From Methyloprofundus sedimenti (GTDB lineage Bacteria > Pseudomonadota > Gammaproteobacteria > Methylococcales > Methylomonadaceae): 64,000 nucleotides of DNA. Shown in pieces: positions 26,849 to 38,381 of this stretch (position 1 is its first letter; each line of letters starts with the position of its first letter). The notes under the pieces were generated by a model, which saw nothing but the letters and a program-made list of their open reading frames with translations, had not been told where the DNA came from and ran no database searches. The DNA lies in NCBI RefSeq assembly GCF_002072955.1, contig NZ_LPUF01000001.1, positions 1,076,896-1,140,895 of the forward strand, read 5' to 3'. The translations under genes and the position numbers were made by a program.

Positions 26849-29077
26849 TTAACGCTTATACTGCATAACACTTTCTGCTTTATTACGATATTCAGTGGCT
26901 TTAGCCTGATCACCTAACTGCTGATTATAACTAGCTAGAGCCATCAGTATTTCTATATTTCCAGTGTGTTTTTGTAGTGCGCTTTGCAGTATTTTGATCG
27001 CCTGTTCAGGATGCTTTTCAGCTGTGGCAACCGCATATACATATTGATAACTCGCGGTATCAGGCTCTAGTTCAGCGGCTTTTTGTAATGCCTGCAGGGC
27101 TTTTTCTTTTTCGCCATGTCGCACATACCAAAGCCCTAGCGAGTGATACAAAGCAGCATCTGGAATAACTTTTAAGCCCTGCTGTAATATTGCAAAGGCG
27201 GCTTGCTCCTGATTCTGTTGCTGCAAAAAATTAGCATAATTAACATACGCGGGAATAAACTGTACTTGCAAAATCAATGCTTGCTTAAAAGCAGCCTCAG
27301 CCTTGGCAAACTGTCCCAACTGGCTGTAAAGTTGCGCTAAGGACAATTGTGCCTCGGGCCGGTCGGCTGCAAATAACAGACTTTGCCGATATTCTTCGCT
27401 GACTTTATCAATTAATTCTTGTTGTTGTTTTTCCAGTGAACCGCGTGGTACAGCTGCTAAAATGCGTGCCGCTTCCATACGCACAATTTTAACAGGATCA
27501 TTTAATGCCGCGAAAATCTGCGCAACTGTATGCTCTAAAGGAAATAATTCCAGTGCCAGTAAAGCCTGTCTACGCACATCCGTATCTTGTGAGCGTAGCA
27601 TTTGCATAGCTGTCATCAGGGTCTGTCTTGAAGGGTATTCTCCTAGGTGTCCTACGACGGTAGCTTTAGCAATATTTGGCGTCACATTTAACAGTGTTCC
27701 GTAAGCCAGCTGTAAAGCATCTGCCTGTTGTTGCTCTAATGCATGGAGTGTCGGGCCAAATTGCTGATAACCTTGCGGTGTTTTTCCATACCATTTTTTA
27801 ATTGCCTCTGCTGCCCACGGGCTATTTTTATGCTGATGGCAGTTAGTGCAGGCATCAGGTGTTGCTAATTGAGTTGCCAGGTCCGGGCGCGGTATCCGGA
27901 AACTATGATCATTACGTGCATCTACCCCCATATATACGGTTGCAGGCATATGACAGGCAATGCAACTAGCTCCGGCAGACTTATCCTGATGAAAATGATG
28001 TTTTGAGGTTGCATAATCAGTAGCCAGATGACATTGCAGACAAACCTTATCACTTTCGGCTTTACGTGCCAGTGTATGTGGATTATGACAATCGCTACAG
28101 ATCACTCCTGCCTGATACATCTTGCTCTGCAAAAATGAAGCATAGACATAGACCTCATCTTTGATTTGACCATCGGGATAATACAGTGGCGCGGTTAATA
28201 ATGCAGGTAAATAATGATCGCGGAAATTATCTCCCGGAACAAAGTTATCATCCAGTTGTGCGCGGCGCGAATGGCATTTAGCACAGACCTGTATTTCTGC
28301 CTGATTTGTAGATGAGCTACCTGATAGTTCTGGTTTACCCGTTTTAGTATTGATTGTCCAGTTTCTGTTTGCGGGTTTGGGCAGATGAACTGTTAATCCA
28401 TTTACTTGCCTGTCACGTTTGTCTGCTGGCTTTTCTGCCCAGATGATATGTTCAGAGGCTGGGCCATGGCAGGCTTCACAGGAAACATTGATTTCATCCC
28501 ATGTTGTCGCGTAGCTTTTATCCTGCTCGGAATAATTTTTCTGCAGATGGGTACTGTGACAATCGGCACACATAAAATTCCAGTTTAAATTCGGTCCTGT
28601 CCAGTGCAATACATCGCCAGCTTTAATAGCCTCATCAGGATGCAGGCTAAACCAGCGTTGCCCGCCCTGTTCTTTGCTACGACTGTCCCAGGCTATATCA
28701 AGCACCTGAATTTTGCCCTTAGGAAATTTAACCATATATTGCTGCAAAGGGTAGATGCCAAAAACGTAGCTAATTTGATAGTCGTGCAGCTTGCCATCCG
28801 GGCCATCGGTATTGACCATAAACTGATCCTGATTTTTATAAAAACGACTGCTGATACCTGACTTGCTAAAGGTCGCATTATTAAAATTGCCCAGGACATT
28901 TTGTGCATTTGCTTCCTGCATCGCCAGATCATGGTGCGAGTCTTGCCATTGATTATGTTCTTCAAGATGGCAGGACTTGCAAGTTTGCTCCCCGACATAC
29001 TCCGGGGCCGCAATTACGGCTAAAGGATAAAGAAAACAAAGCGTTATAAGGTAACGTAACAGGGATATTAATTTCAT
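26849..29077 (-). CDS. Octaheme cytochrome c with HEAT and TPR repeats
   Basis: 742 residues from ATG 29077, chosen because a good signal peptide (MKLISLLRYLITLCFLYPLAVIAA) starts there; the frame is open to 29188. Eight CxxCH heme sites follow: CKSCH, CADCH, CEACH, CAKCH, CSDCH, CLQCH, CIACH and CTNCH. After the hemes come HEAT-like helices (about residues 470-560) and at least four TPR units (about 575-735). The first part resembles cytochrome c554-like doubled-CxxCH proteins. Periplasmic electron transfer or assembly of a redox complex is likely; the partner is unknown. The signal peptide and heme lysine-free motifs indicate standard c-type maturation. Confidence 0.88.
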   Translation of the reverse strand: MKLISLLRYLITLCFLYPLAVIAAPEYVGEQTCKSCHLEEHNQWQDSHHDLAMQEANAQNVLGNFNNATFSKSGISSRFYKNQDQFMVNTDGPDGKLHDYQISYVFGIYPLQQYMVKFPKGKIQVLDIAWDSRSKEQGGQRWFSLHPDEAIKAGDVLHWTGPNLNWNFMCADCHSTHLQKNYSEQDKSYATTWDEINVSCEACHGPASEHIIWAEKPADKRDRQVNGLTVHLPKPANRNWTINTKTGKPELSGSSSTNQAEIQVCAKCHSRRAQLDDNFVPGDNFRDHYLPALLTAPLYYPDGQIKDEVYVYASFLQSKMYQAGVICSDCHNPHTLARKAESDKVCLQCHLATDYATSKHHFHQDKSAGASCIACHMPATVYMGVDARNDHSFRIPRPDLATQLATPDACTNCHQHKNSPWAAEAIKKWYGKTPQGYQQFGPTLHALEQQQADALQLAYGTLLNVTPNIAKATVVGHLGEYPSRQTLMTAMQMLRSQDTDVRRQALLALELFPLEHTVAQIFAALNDPVKIVRMEAARILAAVPRGSLEKQQQELIDKVSEEYRQSLLFAADRPEAQLSLAQLYSQLGQFAKAEAAFKQALILQVQFIPAYVNYANFLQQQNQEQAAFAILQQGLKVIPDAALYHSLGLWYVRHGEKEKALQALQKAAELEPDTASYQYVYAVATAEKHPEQAIKILQSALQKHTGNIEILMALASYNQQLGDQAKATEYRNKAESVMQYKR

Positions 29078-29240
29078 TTTTACCGGTTTAGAAGGATGGT
29101 TTTGGCAACAGTCATTTACTAAGGGGTGTGCATTAACTAACTTGAGCAACCTGATTTTTGTAGGTGGGCGCGGCCCGTTGTCATTCACAGGATGAAAAGA
29201 TTAATTTGCATAGGCCTCAGCGAGAAGAGTGTTATTTATT

Positions 29241-30493: not shown

Positions 30494-30870
30494 CCTGATT
30501 ACCCATAACTCTCAGCTATATTCGCCATCCGATGCTTATAGCGCACTACCTTAAGTTAAGAGATTTTTATTGCAAAGCAATAAAAACGTAACCCAACATA
30601 GGCTCCAAACGAGGCATTGTTGGGTTACGTTATCTACGCTTCGCTAGATAAGCTAACCCAACCTACAGTGTAACATTTTGTTTAATATGGATTTATTCCT
30701 TAACTTAATGGCGGTGATGCTTGCAGCAGGAATCTCGTGGGTTAAGCAAAGATTCTCGATAAAGCTTGTGCCCAAGCTTGACTGGGTAGACTGCGAAAAT
30801 GACGAGACGCTTAAATATACTGATATTTTAAAATTTAATTTAATAGGGCTGTGAGTTGTACGTAATCAGG
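30494..30870. mobile_element. MITE-like element, family A, with 8-bp target duplication
   Basis: 377 bp bounded by imperfect 29-bp terminal inverted repeats: CCTGATTACCCATAACTCTC at the left and the complement of GTTGTACGTAATCAGG at the right. The 8-mer AATCCTTT occurs directly on both sides (30486-30493 and 30871-30878), a clean target-site duplication. A module of roughly 190 bp (about 30531-30723) is present here but absent in the copy at 32708. Confidence 0.88.
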
Positions 30871-30983: not shown

Positions 30984-31089
30984 GGTTGAACAACAGTCTG
31001 TTTTCTCCCCGGATTACAATCTACGTATCGGGTAATAGTAACTACGGGTTAGGTTGAACAACAGTCTGTTTTCTCCCCGGATTACAATC
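30984..31089. repeat. Two 38-bp direct repeats separated by 30 bp
   Basis: Copies at 30984-31021 and 31052-31089 are identical, start GGTTGAACAACAGTC and end CCCCGGATTACAATC; the 30-bp spacer is unique. Geometry resembles a single CRISPR unit but there is no cas gene nor third copy. Confidence 0.7.
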
Positions 31090-31238: not shown

Positions 31239-31316
31239 ATGAATACATTGAAAAGTTTAACAATCGGACAATATGCATCTTACAAAGACAGAGCGAATTC
31301 TTCGGATTTTCACTGA
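31239..31316 (+). other. Possible 25-codon upstream ORF overlapping the carrier gene start
   Basis: ATG at 31239 opens a frame ending TGA 31314-31316, overlapping the start (31273) of the carrier in another frame. AAGGATAGAGAT lies upstream, whereas the carrier ATG has only a weak site. It could couple translation, but may be chance. Confidence 0.25.
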
Positions 31317-32679
31317 AGTGCGAGCTGGGGAAGGTTCCACAGCACTTCTAATGCTCACCAATGTATTTCTTATTCTCTGTGCTTATTATTTCATTAAGCC
31401 ATTACGTGAAGGCTGGATCGCTATTTCAGATATTGAAGGCCTGTCGAAAATGGAAGTCAGGGCTTATTCAAGTTTTGCTCAGAGTATATTTCTATTATTT
31501 ATTGTCGGATGGTATGGTCGTCTATCCGAGCGTTGGAGTCGCATTACCTTAATTACACGAGCAACCCTGTTTTGCATATCTAATATGGTAATATTCTGGA
31601 TTCTTCAACCGGGTTTATTTATTGAAGGGTTACCGGCATCAGGAATTATTTTCTATCTTTGGGTGGGCATGTTCGGGGTATTTATTGTCGCTCAATTCTG
31701 GACTTTCAGCGCTGATATATACACTGATGAAAGCGGCAAACGTCTCTTGCCTCTAATAGCCATAGGGGGGACCTCTGGAGCTGCCGCAGGTTCATGGATG
31801 GTTGATCTGTTTGTCGAAACCGGAATCATTCATACAGAAGCCTTGTTGCTCATTGCAACCTTGCCACTTTTCGGTTCGGTTTTAATCACCCGTACTGTTG
31901 ATGCCCGCCTAAGAAATCAAGGTTCCTTGGGTAAGGTTAAATCTTCTGTAAGTATTCCTGCCTTAGTGACTGAAAATAAAGATATTAAACCTATTATTAT
32001 CGGTGCCAAACTAATATTTTACAGTCGTTTTATGCTGGCTGCTGCTCTAGTCACGCTTTTAACTAATTGGGTAAATACCAATGGTGAAAACCTTTTATTT
32101 CGGGTGATTCAGGATGCACTGGCTATGCAAGCGATAGAGCTGAATATAACCGGTTCTCAGCAGATACTCGGATTCATTCGGGATGGTACCACGGCATTTT
32201 ATGGGAACTTCTTTTTCTGGGTGAATATCACCGCCTTGTTTCTACAGTCTTTTATGGCCTCACGCTTGCTCAAACTAGGCGGTTTTGGAGTTATTCTTTT
32301 GACTCTGCCCGTTATCGCTCTGCTTTCCTATACGACTATGGCGTTATTGCCAATTCTGTTAGTTGTAAAAATAATGAAGATTGCAGAAAATGCCACAGAC
32401 TATTCGATCAACAATACCGCTCGTCATGTGCTTTGGCTACCGGTTGACACGAAGATGCGATTTCTCGGGAAACCTGCCATAGATACACTTTATGTTCGAT
32501 TTGGAGATGGATTAGCCGCCATTACAGTTCTAATAGGTGTTCAAGTGTTATCACTATCGACCAAACAATTTTTTATCTTCAATGTATCATTGGTTGTGCT
32601 TTGGTTGATATTCGGCATCATGCTGGTACGCGAGTACAATAAGGCTTTAGCTGCAAACCTGACGGAAAACAAGCGTTAA
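31273..32679 (+). CDS. ATP/ADP translocase-family (TLC) nucleotide carrier
   Basis: 468 residues, about 12 membrane helices, no signal peptide. AYYFIKPLREGWI near residues 38-50 and the GGTSGAAAGSWMVD region near 170-180 match the NTP/NDP exchange transporters (Npt/Tlc) of intracellular bacteria and plastids, which also occur in free-living bacteria. It would sit in the inner membrane and move nucleotides. It precedes a gene for a secreted ATP-grasp protein, which suggests nucleotide delivery to the periplasm (inference). Substrate and direction cannot be told from sequence. Confidence 0.75.
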   Translation: MHLTKTERILRIFTEVRAGEGSTALLMLTNVFLILCAYYFIKPLREGWIAISDIEGLSKMEVRAYSSFAQSIFLLFIVGWYGRLSERWSRITLITRATLFCISNMVIFWILQPGLFIEGLPASGIIFYLWVGMFGVFIVAQFWTFSADIYTDESGKRLLPLIAIGGTSGAAAGSWMVDLFVETGIIHTEALLLIATLPLFGSVLITRTVDARLRNQGSLGKVKSSVSIPALVTENKDIKPIIIGAKLIFYSRFMLAAALVTLLTNWVNTNGENLLFRVIQDALAMQAIELNITGSQQILGFIRDGTTAFYGNFFFWVNITALFLQSFMASRLLKLGGFGVILLTLPVIALLSYTTMALLPILLVVKIMKIAENATDYSINNTARHVLWLPVDTKMRFLGKPAIDTLYVRFGDGLAAITVLIGVQVLSLSTKQFFIFNVSLVVLWLIFGIMLVREYNKALAANLTENKR

Positions 32680-33047
32680 TTTGGTTTTGAGATAATACTT
32701 AGGTATACCTGATTACCCATAACTCTCAGCTATATTCGTCATTCCTGCACGCTTTTAGCAGGAATCTCGTGGGGTAAGCAAAGATTCCCGATAAAAGACT
32801 TCGGGAATGACGAGACTATTAACATACTGATATTTAAAATTTTTTTAATATGGCTGTGAGTTGTACGTAATCAGGTAGGCATATACAAGAATATCGTCAC
32901 CAGTCGTTTGCTAGGTAGAGGATTGAGTCCTGCATAAGTATGGCAAGGCTGTTTCGGACTGTTCTTAACCTATCAAAAAACAACAGTTGAAGCATGTTAT
33001 GATTTATTAACTCTGTTTCTATAGGTCATTTAAAGAAGTGTCTGGTT
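32680..33047. other. Gap holding a short family A MITE
   Basis: Apart from the element at 32708-32875 only about 170 bp of AT-rich sequence precede the gene at 33048; AAAGAAGTG there may be its ribosome site. Confidence 0.6.
32708..32875. mobile_element. MITE-like element, family A, short form
   Basis: 168 bp with the same terminal repeats as 30494-30870 (CCTGATTAC..GTAATCAGG). Flanks TAGGTATA (32700-32707) and TAGGCATA (32876-32883) match in seven of eight bases, a slightly decayed 8-bp target duplication. It lacks the inner module and folds through GGAATCTCG/CGGGAATGACGAG. Confidence 0.85.
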
Positions 33048-35969
33048 ATGCATATATATAATAAATATCTGATAGTCCTTACTTTAACCTCCCTCATCCC
33101 GGTGATATGCTCTGCAACCCCTGAGACAACCGAGTACAGAACATGGATTGCTGATATGAAAGAAAGTCCCAAAGGACCTTTTATCCGTGTTTTCTGGTTT
33201 TGTAACGATGGAGAAATTTTATTGCCAAAACCCTATGCATGCACTGAGCATGGTGGGGGGTATCAGCATGGAAAGCTGAACGACAGGGCCTTGATTCTAA
33301 GAAATAATGGCTACTGGATAGCAAATTTACTTGCTGGAATCGATACGAAAAACATCCTGGCTAGTGATGATTTTGTTGATTGGTATGGTCAGTTGCTAAT
33401 TGAAAAGTTTCTGATCAGAACAGATAATGGCTGGATTCTGAAAAAGGCCCTTTATTACCGCGGAGCCATTCAAGAAGAAGACGAAAGGTATGGAGCCAGA
33501 ATGCTGCTCACTGCTCTAGCTGAAAAAAATGAATGGATCAAGCGACGTTACTCTGCTCTGCGTACGGGAGTACAACTTCTTCCTCATGGCGAAGATAGCG
33601 CATCAATTCAGAAAGTTCGACAAATGTCAGTTTCTCTAGCAGAGCAGGATGAACAGTTTGTAAATTTACGTACCAAAATTCATGTATCGCCCGATGCAGG
33701 GGATGCCAGGCTGGTCCGTGAATATGCGGCAAAGATTAGCGATCCTCAGCAACAAGCCAAATACATGGAATTGGCTCAGGAAATCGATCGCGTTTTCCAA
33801 TCACATCCCTTGCATCAGTTACTGGAACGGAATGCAAAAATTTTTTCTGCTGAACCCTGGTTACAGCAGCTGCTTCTTGAAGCTGGCAAAGCCTATCATT
33901 CAGACAATAGTGCTGGAAACTATTATGCTGTTACATCACACCTTCTCGCTGACCTTCGCGATGCACTCCCTAAAATTCGAAAACCAGGTTCAAGGCTGCG
34001 CATTCTGGATTTGAGTCTTGCTGTTGAAGTTGAAAACTTCAGAGTCAGTACTCAACTCAAATCTACACTTACAAAAGTCAATCGACTGCAACGTATTTCC
34101 TGGTTACGAGATGCGGCTTTAGCTGCCTACGGCACTGGTCATATTAATCATCGAAGCCTGGAAGCACTACAGGCTTCTATCAGCCGAATGGAATATGCAC
34201 AACTTCCTTTAACTACTTATTTCAACGAATTGAAATATCTTTCCCGCGCTCCTGGCTGGAGTACACAGGAATTACGCTTTCAGTTTTATCAATCAATGAT
34301 AAAGTTGACAGAAATAGAACCTTTAGCCATATTTTTTATTCAAGATATTTTACGCGGAAGTCCCATGCTGTTTTTTTCGCAAATCCTGGATAGCTTAAGT
34401 CGTGATGCTAACCAATTGGCTGGGACTACGCATAAGATCTTTAATACACAAGTTGGCGTTGGGTTCCATGCTCTCAACCCAGGACTGGCCAGGGGAAAGT
34501 TATATACAAAAGTTGATATCAATAATTCTGCAAACTTTGACTCACAAGGTATCTATTTACTACCTGAAACTGTTGCCGACCTTCCCTCTATTGCTGGTAT
34601 TATCACTGTTGGGGAAGGCAATTCGCTTTCGCATATTCAATTACTGGCCAGGAATTTGGGTATTCCCAATATTACTGTTAATGAAAATCTTCTGCAGCAA
34701 CTCCAGGACCATGATGGTGAAACCATTGTTATGGCAGTCAGTCCAGATGGCCTGATAGAAATAAATGGCGATTCAGAATATTGGCAAAAATTCTTTAATT
34801 CAAACTCCAATCAACAACAAGCTGTTATTCGCCCCGACCTGGAAAAACTCGATCTGTCTATACAAGAAATTATAGGTCTGAACTCCCTTCGAGCCTCTGA
34901 TTCGGGCCGCATTGTTGGCCCTAAAGCTGCCAAACTGGGGGAGTTGTATTATCATTACCCTGGAAAGGTTGCAAAAGGTTTTGCTATTCCATTCGGGGTT
35001 TTTCGTAAAACAGTATTAGACGCGCCCTACAAAAAAACTGAACAAACTGTGTTTGAATGGATGGAAAGTCAGTATGCAATTATTCATGCCTTACCCATAG
35101 ATTCTGAACAGCGCAAGCAGATGACGGAGTCTTACCGGGCGGAAATATATGACATAATCATCAATACTGATATAGGGGATCAAAACCGAAATAACATACG
35201 CAAAGCAATGATCAATACCTTCGGCAGTACAGAGGCAGGCGTATTTATCCGTTCGGACACCAATGTAGAGGATTTACCCGGCTTTACTGGAGCGGGGTTA
35301 AACCTGACATTGTTTAATATTGTCAGTATAGAGAATATATTTAAAGGAATCACTAAAGTATGGGCCTCACCCTTTACTGCTCGCGCATTTTCCTGGCGAC
35401 AATCGCTTATGGAATCACCTCAACATGTTTATCCGTCAATACTGCTTATGCAAACCGTGGCAAATGATAAATCCGGCGTTATGATTACAGAGGACATTGA
35501 TACCAACAAAAAAGGTGTCCTGTATATTGCAACCAACGAAGGCGTTGGCGGTGCCGTCGATGGGCAATCTGCCGAATCTCTGCGTATAGATACAAGGGAT
35601 GGGAAGGTTCTATTATTAGCCACTGCATCTGCGCCCTTTCGGAAAGTTCCATTACCTGAAGGCGGCATTGCAAATGTACCGGTTAGTGATTCTGAAAGTG
35701 TATTAAAAGCAAATGAAATAAGCCAGTTAATACAGTTTGCCAAAGAATTACCGGATACATTTCCACCTATCACAGATGAAAATAACAACCCTGTTCCGGC
35801 TGATATTGAATTTGGATTTTTCAATGGCAAGCTACAATTATTTCAACTGCGTCCCTTTTTGCAAAGTAACAAGGTTCAAGCCAGCTCCTATTTAATGAAT
35901 ATGGATAAGGCGCTACAAAATAATATGAACAGGATGGTATTAATGAATGAGGTACCGGAAGAATTATGA
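33048..35969 (+). CDS. Secreted glucan-water-dikinase-like PEP/pyruvate-binding domain protein
   Basis: 973 residues. Signal peptide MHIYNKYLIVLTLTSLIPVICS, then a large N-terminal region of unknown fold (to about 480). A phosphohistidine-type segment follows (GEGNSLSHIQLLARNLGIPN, His about 528), then a C-terminal PPDK/PEP-synthase-type ATP-grasp domain (about 620-945) with GPKAAKLGEL, IRSDTNVEDLPGFTGAG, NEGVGGAVDG and LFQLRPF. This order, swivelling His domain before the nucleotide domain, is that of glucan water dikinases. Those are cytosolic or plastid enzymes; an exported form needs ATP outside the cytosol. The next gene overlaps by four bases. Catalytic residues look kept, but activity is not proven. 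Confidence 0.78.
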   Translation: MHIYNKYLIVLTLTSLIPVICSATPETTEYRTWIADMKESPKGPFIRVFWFCNDGEILLPKPYACTEHGGGYQHGKLNDRALILRNNGYWIANLLAGIDTKNILASDDFVDWYGQLLIEKFLIRTDNGWILKKALYYRGAIQEEDERYGARMLLTALAEKNEWIKRRYSALRTGVQLLPHGEDSASIQKVRQMSVSLAEQDEQFVNLRTKIHVSPDAGDARLVREYAAKISDPQQQAKYMELAQEIDRVFQSHPLHQLLERNAKIFSAEPWLQQLLLEAGKAYHSDNSAGNYYAVTSHLLADLRDALPKIRKPGSRLRILDLSLAVEVENFRVSTQLKSTLTKVNRLQRISWLRDAALAAYGTGHINHRSLEALQASISRMEYAQLPLTTYFNELKYLSRAPGWSTQELRFQFYQSMIKLTEIEPLAIFFIQDILRGSPMLFFSQILDSLSRDANQLAGTTHKIFNTQVGVGFHALNPGLARGKLYTKVDINNSANFDSQGIYLLPETVADLPSIAGIITVGEGNSLSHIQLLARNLGIPNITVNENLLQQLQDHDGETIVMAVSPDGLIEINGDSEYWQKFFNSNSNQQQAVIRPDLEKLDLSIQEIIGLNSLRASDSGRIVGPKAAKLGELYYHYPGKVAKGFAIPFGVFRKTVLDAPYKKTEQTVFEWMESQYAIIHALPIDSEQRKQMTESYRAEIYDIIINTDIGDQNRNNIRKAMINTFGSTEAGVFIRSDTNVEDLPGFTGAGLNLTLFNIVSIENIFKGITKVWASPFTARAFSWRQSLMESPQHVYPSILLMQTVANDKSGVMITEDIDTNKKGVLYIATNEGVGGAVDGQSAESLRIDTRDGKVLLLATASAPFRKVPLPEGGIANVPVSDSESVLKANEISQLIQFAKELPDTFPPITDENNNPVPADIEFGFFNGKLQLFQLRPFLQSNKVQASSYLMNMDKALQNNMNRMVLMNEVPEEL

Positions 35970-37492
35970 AAACCATGATACACATGCATATGTTGCTTGC
36001 TTTGTTGTTTTCTGCCGTACTGCAGGCATATCCTTTGGATGGATACAAGGAAACAGGTATAAGACGTGTCGAGGCTGACCGGCTTGCAGTGTTAGGAGAA
36101 ATTCGCGGACGCAAACAACCCCCGGGGGCTTTACTGCCTATTCAATATGTTAATCTGCGTTTACTGGATTACCCGGAACTAAATTTACCACCGCCAGACC
36201 CAAATTTTACAACCCAAATCACCAAATTGTTAGGCAACTCTAGTGAACATTATGGGATTTCTGTTTTAGACGTTTCTGATCCCCATCATCCTCTCTATGC
36301 AGAATATCGTGGTGATTTTCAGCAAAATGTAGGAAGTGTTGGAAAAATATTGGTAGGATTAGCATTATTTCAGGCACTTGCGGATATTTATCCGGATATT
36401 GAGTCGCGAAAAAAAATACTGCTTGAAACCATTATCACCGCCGATAATTTTATTTATACCGATCATCATAAGGTGCACATCTGGAACCCGGTTAGCAGAA
36501 AAAGCGTTACTAGAGAATTGAGAATAGGAGATCAGGGTAATTTATGGGAATGGCTAGACTGGATGTTCTCGGCAAGTTCAAATGCAGCAGCGGCGACGGT
36601 AATGAAACAGGCCATGTTATTAGTGCATTACGGTAAAAATTATCCGGTTGGCGATGATGAATCCAGCGAGTTTTTTAATATTACTCCCCGAAAAGAGCTT
36701 AGCCAGCTATTTACAAAGACTTTTATAGACCCGTTAAATCGAAGCGGCTTCGATCCGGAACGGTTTCGACAAGGTAGTTTTTTTACACACTATGGCAAGA
36801 AAAAAGTATCTGGGACTTCGAGTTTTGGTACAGCTCGGCAACTTATGCTGTTTTCCTTGAGAATGGAACAAGGTAGGCTTGTGGATATATTTTCCAGCCG
36901 TGAGATTAAACGTTTACTGTATATGACTGAGCGCAGAATTCGTTATGCCTCATCACCGGCATTGTCCGAATCGGCGGTATATTTCAAATCCGGCTCATTA
37001 TACCAATGTAAACCGGAGCCGGGTTTTGTATGTAAGAAATATCATGGTAATGTCAAAAATTATATGAATTCAGTAGCAATTGTTGAATCACCTGCAGGGG
37101 AACCCCGTCTTAATTATTTGGTGACGTTGCTTTCTAACGTGTTGTATAAAAATTCCGCAGTGGATCACCAGACACTAGGCACCCGTATTCACCGCGTTAT
37201 AGAAGCTATGCATCCGTATCAGGCACTAACACCAGAGGGTATTCCGATTGCTGCAAGTTTTGGAGATGAATTAATTGGTTACGAAGGAAAACGTTTGCAA
37301 CGCCTGCAGGTTGTTAATATACAGGTAGCATTGCAGAAATTAGGTTATTCAGTCGGTGGGGTCGATGGTAAAGTAGGCCCCAAGACGATCAGGGCCATAA
37401 AAGATTTTCAGTCAGCTTATAAACTCGAAGCGGACGGAAAACCGTCCGCAACCCTGCTAGAAAAGCTTAATGAAGTACTTGCTAGTTTTTAG
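35966..37492 (+). CDS. Exported serine hydrolase with peptidoglycan-binding domain
   Basis: 508 residues. Signal peptide about 1-21 (LLALLFSAVLQA). A penicillin-binding/beta-lactamase-type fold carries Ser124-Val-Gly-Lys127 (SxxK), Ser204-Ser-Asn206 (SxN) and Lys341-Ser-Gly343 (KTG equivalent). Residues about 440-505 form a PG_binding_1 domain (VALQKLGYSVGGVDGKVGPKT). It should act on or near peptidoglycan in the periplasm. It starts inside the stop codon of the dikinase-like gene, so the two products are made together. Substrate unknown; DD-peptidase, esterase or lactamase are possible. Confidence 0.8.
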   Translation: MKTMIHMHMLLALLFSAVLQAYPLDGYKETGIRRVEADRLAVLGEIRGRKQPPGALLPIQYVNLRLLDYPELNLPPPDPNFTTQITKLLGNSSEHYGISVLDVSDPHHPLYAEYRGDFQQNVGSVGKILVGLALFQALADIYPDIESRKKILLETIITADNFIYTDHHKVHIWNPVSRKSVTRELRIGDQGNLWEWLDWMFSASSNAAAATVMKQAMLLVHYGKNYPVGDDESSEFFNITPRKELSQLFTKTFIDPLNRSGFDPERFRQGSFFTHYGKKKVSGTSSFGTARQLMLFSLRMEQGRLVDIFSSREIKRLLYMTERRIRYASSPALSESAVYFKSGSLYQCKPEPGFVCKKYHGNVKNYMNSVAIVESPAGEPRLNYLVTLLSNVLYKNSAVDHQTLGTRIHRVIEAMHPYQALTPEGIPIAASFGDELIGYEGKRLQRLQVVNIQVALQKLGYSVGGVDGKVGPKTIRAIKDFQSAYKLEADGKPSATLLEKLNEVLASF

Positions 37493-38381
37493 AGGCGACC
37501 ATATGAGGAACAATTAGATCGTGCAGCGGTACAATCATTTTCTGTAGCCATTTACCACCGTCAGGATGTTTGGCAAGTGCGACTATTATAAATTTGTGTC
37601 CACCACTTTCGACAATGGCGCTATCAGCATGCCAGGTTCTCCATGAACCAGATTTTCGATAGATTTTAGCGTCTGGACGTTCTTTTTCAAGTCCTTTGAC
37701 AAATTTGTGATGAATCGCAGGTTTTGACAGAATTTCTTTCATTTGGCTGGCTAGTGGTTCTGGAACTAACTGCCCTGTTTCAAGCATATAATAAAAACGG
37801 GCGGTCTGCATTGCTGTAGCGCCATGGGAAATGTTATGTAATGGGTCACGTTTCCATGCCTTGGCTTTACCATATTCCTTTCCTACCCATAGGCCGCCAT
37901 TTTTATCCTGATCATAAAGTTTGAAACGATCAGACTGCAAAATTTCTGCTAGTCTCGCTTCACCAACACGATGATACATTTCAGTCGCAGCCTGATTCGA
38001 GGAATACCTGATCATATCAGTTAATGTCTTACTGGTATTTTGATCCAGTTGCATTTTTCCGCGCTCGATTTCTACGAATGCACCTAGAAGAATGGCAATT
38101 TTTGGAAGGCTGGCAGCATACACCATATTCTCACCATTAATCATTGCAACTTTTGGATGTTTAAGATCAGTAATATCAACCAAATTTAAGTTAAGCCATT
38201 TTTTTTCTGCTGCGTGACCTAATCCGATAGATTTTATCACCCTTTCCAATTTACGTTGGAGAACCGGGTCTTTTGAATTCGTCAAAGAGGGATAGTTACC
38301 GGCAAAACTTACTGAAGGCGCCAATAAGCTAATTAGCAGGGAAGTAAATAGAAAACAGATTGATGTTTTCAAAGAATTCAT
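37482..38381 (-). CDS. Exported class A beta-lactamase-like serine hydrolase
   Basis: 299 residues. Signal peptide about 1-27. Ser91-Leu-Pro-Lys94, Ser127-Ser-Asn129 and Lys243-Ser-Gly245 give the full active-site set. It converges on, and overlaps by 11 bp, the serine hydrolase gene at 35966. Both belong to the same superfamily, so they may have related substrates. True beta-lactamases keep a Glu166-type residue, which could not be assigned here; a DD-peptidase-like role is equally likely. Confidence 0.82.
   Translation of the reverse strand: MNSLKTSICFLFTSLLISLLAPSVSFAGNYPSLTNSKDPVLQRKLERVIKSIGLGHAAEKKWLNLNLVDITDLKHPKVAMINGENMVYAASLPKIAILLGAFVEIERGKMQLDQNTSKTLTDMIRYSSNQAATEMYHRVGEARLAEILQSDRFKLYDQDKNGGLWVGKEYGKAKAWKRDPLHNISHGATAMQTARFYYMLETGQLVPEPLASQMKEILSKPAIHHKFVKGLEKERPDAKIYRKSGSWRTWHADSAIVESGGHKFIIVALAKHPDGGKWLQKMIVPLHDLIVPHMVASKN

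Follow-up and report, generated by a model that had tools for sequence, protein, structure and literature searches.

In plastids, the ATP/ADP carrier NTT1 is paired with alpha-glucan water dikinase, in which a phosphohistidine domain is followed by a C-terminal ATP-grasp domain. Phosphoenolpyruvate (PEP) synthase and pyruvate phosphate dikinase (PPDK) are built in the order PPDK_N, PEP-utilizers and pyruvate-binding barrel. In the eukaryotic secretory pathway, ATP is carried into the endoplasmic reticulum and Golgi for Fam20C kinases. By the usual teaching, the bacterial periplasm contains no ATP. We analyzed a stretch of 64,000 nucleotides from Methyloprofundus sedimenti (GCF_002072955.1, contig NZ_LPUF01000001.1, positions 1,076,896 to 1,140,895 of the forward strand), hereafter the window, to which the positions below refer. 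It contains genes for a carrier of the NTT/TLC family (468 amino acids (aa); 31273-32679, plus strand), a dikinase-like protein predicted to be exported (973 aa; 33048-35969, plus strand), and two SxxK serine enzymes, also predicted to be exported: SerPG (508 aa; 35966-37492, plus strand) and Ser2 (299 aa, Beta-lactamase2 family; 37482-38381, minus strand).

An initial annotation had placed the four genes at these positions, and all four were confirmed there. It had read them as a set in which exported ATP feeds a glucan-water-dikinase-like enzyme in the periplasm. A real, conserved system with export signals and an NTT-family carrier stands; its glucan label does not, nor does its certainty that ATP is exported. 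Our reading is a four-part envelope system, in which nucleotide-driven phosphotransfer would take place outside the cytoplasmic membrane and would be linked to peptidoglycan. We rate its chances as even. No description of the four-gene system was found in searches of the open-access literature; the annotation, too, had known of none.

The module resembles the plastid pair in its NTT carrier, in the domain order of the dikinase and in a compartment that would need imported ATP. Unlike that pair, it belongs to a bacterial envelope, has two additional SxxK enzymes, shows no recognizable carbohydrate-binding domain, lacks the NTT1 lysines in the window carrier, and scores below the GWD1_pHisD cut-off. 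With PEP synthase, PPDK and rifampin phosphotransferase (RPH) the dikinase-like protein shares ATP-grasp and phosphohistidine domains, but it has them in reversed order, with an export signal, another N-terminal region and no detected barrel. NTT carriers of free-living bacteria, including NTT-HEAT fusions (PMC5381601), belong to the same family as the module carrier, and longer NTT-type carriers occur in module loci L056, L057, L059 and L060; neither dikinases nor serine enzymes are described as neighbors in the accessible part of that paper. Secretory-pathway phosphorylation is alike in bringing ATP across a membrane for phosphorylation outside the cytosol, but its proteins are unrelated.

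Linkage of the four genes across genomes

The dikinase and SerPG genes share a 4-bp ATGA overlap, with the SerPG start inside the dikinase stop, and Ser2 converges on SerPG with an 11-bp overlap. The 4-bp overlap and the convergence had been noted in the initial annotation and were confirmed.

Other genomes were searched with one dikinase protein as the query (E<=1e-20). Partners were sought with profiles built from module members, the carrier profile at E<=1e-10. Per genome, at most two candidates were scored for the dikinase, four for the carrier and SerPG, and six for Ser2, and a missing match was not taken as proof of absence. A wrong-frame row, L071, was removed from one alignment before counting. 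Within the class of the window genome, 36 of 369 genomes had a dikinase match, over 25 family codes. The SerPG profile matched in 37 genomes, which were all 36 dikinase genomes plus G205, where a remnant was found. The 35 genomes with a Ser2 match were all among the 36. The carrier profile matched in 97 genomes, 34 of the 36 with the dikinase and 63 of the other 333. The two genomes missed by the carrier profile have related proteins: in G343, the dikinase has a longer carrier of NTT type next to it (L057, 107 bits), and in G233, a distant carrier-like protein of 891 aa occurs in the same 12-kb stretch (L070, 64 bits). The co-occurrence goes far beyond chance, with Fisher p values of 5e-20 to 3e-49, which are indicative only, as the genomes are related. 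Co-occurrence in other genomes, on which the initial annotation had staked its case, was thus found for SerPG in 36/36, Ser2 in 35/36 and the carrier in 34/36 dikinase genomes.

Of 398 genomes drawn from across the phylum, 24 matched, including the window genome and class member G647; 19 of the 24 were from one genus. Seven of the 24 neighborhoods (G432, G460, G483, G505, G518, G577 and G647) contained SerPG in six cases, Ser2 in five and the carrier in four. Among 60 relatives of the window genome, a clear dikinase ortholog was present only in G406, from the same order and another family. Weak matches in 11 other relatives were PEP synthases or members of a second exported dikinase-like family described below.

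We compared the arrangement of 47 dikinase loci (L082 and L085 excluded; some loci are pieces of one genome). SerPG was present in 41 of them and, in 39 of these 41, adjacent to the dikinase on one strand. The carrier and Ser2 lay within 1 kb of each other in 34 of the 39 loci with both. The commonest full order was dikinase, SerPG, Ser2 (reversed) and carrier; in the window, the carrier is in front. The module was clearly spread out in G198, G066, G174 and G091, and the carrier and Ser2 were still neighbors there (L126, L125, L127 and L129). In G198 about 30 kb of one contig separated the two pairs, compared with about 7 kb in G091. In G066 and G174 they were on separate contigs, and on at least one side the contig continued well beyond the genes. 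The dikinase and SerPG were separated by 3-4 kb in G198 and G066 and lay on different contigs in G174. Contig ends hide the arrangement in G163, G302 and G366, which were not used as evidence. In G205 (L120:6204-9061), an uninterrupted window-type carrier gene adjoins what is left of SerPG (95 aa) and of Ser2 (46 aa), with no dikinase match, as expected of a decaying module. By the measure of genome comparison, these patterns show that the four genes form one functional module.

The module has a guanine-plus-cytosine content of 0.40-0.42, compared with 0.418 in its surroundings, and because its base composition is the same as that of the surroundings, recent transfer is without support. A plasmid, phage or other mobile origin was rejected after 0 matches in 72,556 plasmid records (E limit 1e-30) and 50,697 phage records (1e-10); viral contigs gave one weak match. 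A defense system was likewise rejected, as none of the four proteins matched a PADLOC model at E<=0.001.

A distant dikinase paralogue (about 30%) was seen at L082:4713-8948 and L085:170-4415, with no carrier in those stretches. Next to the paralogue in L085 is a weakly Ser2-like stretch; in L082, such a stretch adjoins or overlaps the long reading frame of the paralogue.

The dikinase-like protein and the serine enzymes

Pfam placed PEP-utilizers at residues 504-556 of the dikinase-like protein (25.5 bits, cut-off 23.1) and PPDK_N, the C-terminal ATP-grasp domain, at residues 622-945 (102.1 bits, cut-off 27; 34911-35882). The phosphohistidine domain therefore precedes the ATP-grasp domain. 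The segment GNSLSHIQLLARN corresponds to residues 524-536, and its histidine is H529, the presumed phosphohistidine (codon at 34632-34634). H529, K626, R735, E741, D742, E921, Q933 and R935 were invariant in 34/34 dikinase rows (rows of 900 aa or less were left out). In line with an alignment with PEP synthase, we take these to correspond to the ATP-site residues of PPDK. The phosphohistidine-like segment and C-terminal ATP-grasp domain of the initial annotation agree with this order and these residues. The loss of ATP-binding residues that it had named as a point against itself was not seen, as judged by sequence and not by a structural model. The invariance also bears on the idea that the protein is a pseudoenzyme, a nucleotide-binding or structural protein that regulates the serine enzymes. 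No acceptor domain was recognized in the protein, which would suit such a role, but a protein of that kind would have no need to keep H529 and the residues of the ATP-grasp domain in every row. We regard it as very improbable.

The N-terminus resembles a signal peptide (residues 1-22, cleavage site guessed; 33048-33113). A crude Kyte-Doolittle test detected a hydrophobic core of signal strength in 43/43 dikinase rows with enough upstream sequence, 37/42 SerPG rows and 30/35 Ser2 rows. For these counts, the distant L082 and L085 were excluded, and some failing rows, which are contig-end pieces or wrong frames, were kept in the denominators. The dikinase-like protein also has a cysteine pair, C52 and C65 (33201-33242), which presumably forms a disulfide. 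C52 was kept in 34/34 rows and C65 in 32/34. From residue 44 on, 26 of the 34 dikinases had exactly two cysteines, five had three, one had four and two had five. As a control, six ordinary PEP-synthase-type rows had 7-11 cysteines and no signal-like core (0.88-1.25; a slightly different stretch was measured). The signal peptide predicted in the initial annotation is consistent with the core and the cysteine pair. Alternatively, the signal peptide might be misread and the dikinase cytosolic. The uniform hydrophobic core and the predominance of the single cysteine pair, set against the cysteine-rich PEP-synthase-type proteins, leave us giving this hardly any credence. Taken together, the data show that three module proteins carry predicted export signals and that none of the ATP-grasp and phosphohistidine residues expected of the dikinase-like protein is missing.

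Its N-terminal region (residues 24-480; 33117-34487) is the presumed acceptor side. The AlphaFold 2 model of this half, of moderate confidence (predicted local distance difference test (pLDDT) 69.6), has a small alpha/beta part followed by a long, mostly helical region. Foldseek found no fold match to it in the PDB at E<=0.001, and Pfam scans of the protein detected no carbohydrate-binding domain. The glycan-binding folds for which the initial annotation had hoped here were not found, and a glycan-binding N-terminus is unsupported. The GWD1_pHisD profile gave 13.5 bits, under its cut-off of 27. The glucan-water-dikinase label thus holds for the domain order, and not for family membership or a glycan substrate.

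An ordinary PEP synthase was also rejected. The domain order is reversed, an export signal is predicted, PEP_synth gave 90.7 bits versus a cut-off of 739.75, and Pfam found no match to the pyruvate-binding barrel. Because the window genome has a separate 807-aa PPDK_N protein (407 bits), the dikinase-like protein is not the housekeeping PEP synthase. The best fold match of its full-length model, which is of low confidence, was the RPH ATP domain (5hv6, E 4.5e-7). This model was built from 4 rows (pLDDT 47.3), and fold matches beyond the ATP-grasp domain were disregarded. In a close relative, the dikinase gene (L049:4083-7088) has one in-frame stop in a metagenome contig, either decay or an assembly error.

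A second dikinase-like family, of about 800 aa with a C-terminal PPDK_N domain, was seen in the genus and order of the window and not in the window genome. Its members have the segment SHINLKARQ in 5/8 rows and signal-like N-termini where the start is clear. In 5/6 neighborhoods (L158:5202-9235, L159:5592-9626, L161:3961-8102, L162:6017-9957 and L163:6190-10378), their direct neighbor is a protein of about 530 aa that these loci share, and Pfam found FG-GAP repeats in the three copies that were scanned; at L160:3361-5796, the partner is not beside the gene. Given this second family, the range of exported dikinase-like enzymes extends beyond the four-gene module.

Both serine enzymes contain the SxxK, SxN and K[ST]G motifs of the penicillin-binding protein/beta-lactamase superfamily. 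In SerPG, S124-x-x-K127, S204-x-N206, K341-S-G343 and the cysteine pair C348/C356 were invariant in 19/19 rows. SerPG alone scored 16.4 bits with Beta-lactamase2, under the cut-off of 22, and 18/19 family members matched at E<=0.01. The window SerPG has a PG_binding_1 domain at residues 448-501 (52.9 bits; 37307-37468). Ser2 matched Beta-lactamase2 at 68.2 bits (cut-off 22), all 21 rows matched PF13354 at E<=0.01, and S91, K94, S127-S128-N129, K243 and G245 were invariant in 21/21. With NCBIfam bla_class_A, Ser2 scored 11.8 bits versus a cut-off of 200, and SerPG was not listed.

Descent of the carrier

The window carrier is a borderline match to PF03219 (23.3 bits versus a cut-off of 21 in the whole-genome search), and scanned alone by hmmscan it matched no family at E<=0.1. 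In the family scan, 18/19 carrier members matched PF03219 at E<=0.01, the window protein being the sole exception. TIGR00769 matched 16/19 members and not the window carrier. The family profile, with the window protein included, aligned end to end with solved ATP/ADP carriers (PDB 9j3n, E 1.3e-33; 9j3j, 3.5e-24). The assignment as a TLC-type carrier in the initial annotation is borne out by these family-level matches. By its sequence relationships the carrier is an NTT by descent; we do not claim that it is an ATP/ADP exchanger.

A tree was made of 60 carriers; L070, L132, L060_1525, L061_573, L065, L075 and partial carriers were left out. The 26 rows of the main type of module carrier formed one clade (Shimodaira–Hasegawa-like approximate likelihood ratio test (SH-aLRT) 100). 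The window type grouped with L116, L117 and L131 (SH-aLRT 99), next to carriers outside modules. A single clade for the main and window types was rejected by the approximately unbiased test (p-AU 8.45e-6; the tree was quick, and the clade was named after the tree had been seen). The module carriers stem, on this tree, from at least two NTT lineages. Because carriers of two lineages appear to have been recruited to the same enzymes, carrier and enzymes probably work together.

Longer carrier-like proteins of 715-891 aa with C-terminal extensions were observed in or near some modules (L056:15194-17341, L059:14930-17392, L060:565-2757, L057:1242-3500 and L070:5223-7898). In L056, L059 and L060, the longer carrier is a second one behind the first; that of L070 has weak HEAT repeats. 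In the window, two copies of a repeat resembling a miniature inverted-repeat transposable element, with inverted ends (CCTGATTAC...GTAATCAGG), lie on either side of the carrier gene (30494-30870 and 32708-32875); the 23-base end is present at 8 places in the genome. Upstream of the carrier gene, a stretch of 38 bases is perfectly repeated in direct orientation (30984-31021 and 31052-31089, 68 bases apart). Further upstream of the module, a minus-strand gene (26849-29188) encodes a protein with cytochrome c7/c554-type haem domains and HEAT and TPR repeats.

A possible route for phosphotransfer in the envelope

In the envelope system that we propose, the carrier would bring a nucleotide, most probably ATP, into the periplasm and might take up AMP made by the dikinase in return. 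The dikinase would move phosphate from ATP onto H529, and the phosphate would pass to an acceptor bound by the helical N-terminal half. The putative acceptor would most likely be peptidoglycan or something attached to it. The two SxxK enzymes may act on peptidoglycan-related bonds before or after the phosphotransfer. A more specific version is a dedicated apparatus, in which the NTT carrier moves ATP out and AMP in, peptidoglycan or a molecule linked to it is phosphorylated by the exported dikinase, which would represent a new family, and the SxxK enzymes prepare or finish the site. We put this forward tentatively, at somewhat less than an even chance.

Several observations weigh against our reading. 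We mapped K155, E245, E385 and K527 of Arabidopsis NTT1 onto the carriers by hand, with an offset of 84 that fits all four. As L152, a carrier outside the modules, has K, E, D and K at these positions, the mapping recognizes a nearly classical NTT. The window type has S, G, E and D there, and the main type has W, D, E/D and K/R. A lysine at the K155 position was found in 0/46 carrier rows with a residue there, and within four residues of it in 12/46. According to the accessible part of one study (PMC3306366), K155 is needed for ADP binding and K527 for ATP binding: K155 mutants lost or weakened ADP and ATP binding, and K527 mutants lost or nearly lost ATP binding. The cargo and direction of the carrier are unreadable from sequence. 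NTT carriers are present without the module in 63/333 genomes, Ser2 has no match in G009 and is a 60-residue piece in G153, and the dikinase relative of G647 has no partner in 18 kb. In G483, SerPG alone is beside the dikinase, and in G332 a window-like carrier does not lie with the three other genes (L058, L131). The PG-binding domain is present in only 2/21 SerPG rows, the window and L049; that alignment contained the wrong-frame row L061, which was left out of a later one.

The missing lysines would also fit a carrier that moves something other than ATP, such as a phosphorylated product or another nucleotide, with the dikinase using nucleotide from lysed neighbors or vesicles. The window type lacks the ATP-binding lysine in addition to the ADP-binding one. 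Published excerpts report that NTT sequence does not predict substrate range (PMC4256464) and that the family includes an NAD carrier (PMC5381601). However, the main type is basic at the K527 position: among 49 carrier rows, 28 combine W at the K155 position and D at the E245 position with a residue at K527, namely K (25 rows) or R (3 rows). In the microsporidian carriers ThNTT1 and ThNTT3 of T. hominis, three of the four NTT1 residues are replaced, with substitutes close by, and yet both proteins transport ATP and GTP, as the available text of PMC4256464 describes; both keep K527, a point against our reading, and an ATP cargo is least secure for the window type. The tight link to an ATP-grasp enzyme is best explained by a carrier that handles ATP or AMP. 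We think a non-ATP cargo unlikely, though worth taking seriously. For the dedicated apparatus described above, the absence of the ADP-binding lysine from all 46 carrier rows examined would suit ATP/AMP exchange better than ATP/ADP exchange.

The same parts list would also suit scavenging, in which extracellular ATP, once in the periplasm, is cleaved by the dikinase and the carrier takes up the remaining nucleotide. The functionally characterized NTTs all come from parasites or organelles and have uptake roles, as far as the accessible part of PMC5381601 goes. However, scavenging leaves the two SxxK enzymes, so constant among the module genomes, unexplained, and ordinary nucleotidases would suffice for it. 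We consider it clearly improbable.

Many free-living bacteria hold the linked set, which suggests an ATP-driven reaction outside the cell membrane. If the proposed envelope system is real, free-living bacteria could run ATP-dependent reactions in the periplasm. The many uncharacterized NTT carriers of free-living bacteria, whose role the accessible part of PMC5381601 leaves open, would gain a first function, and the system would point to a so far unknown modification of the envelope.

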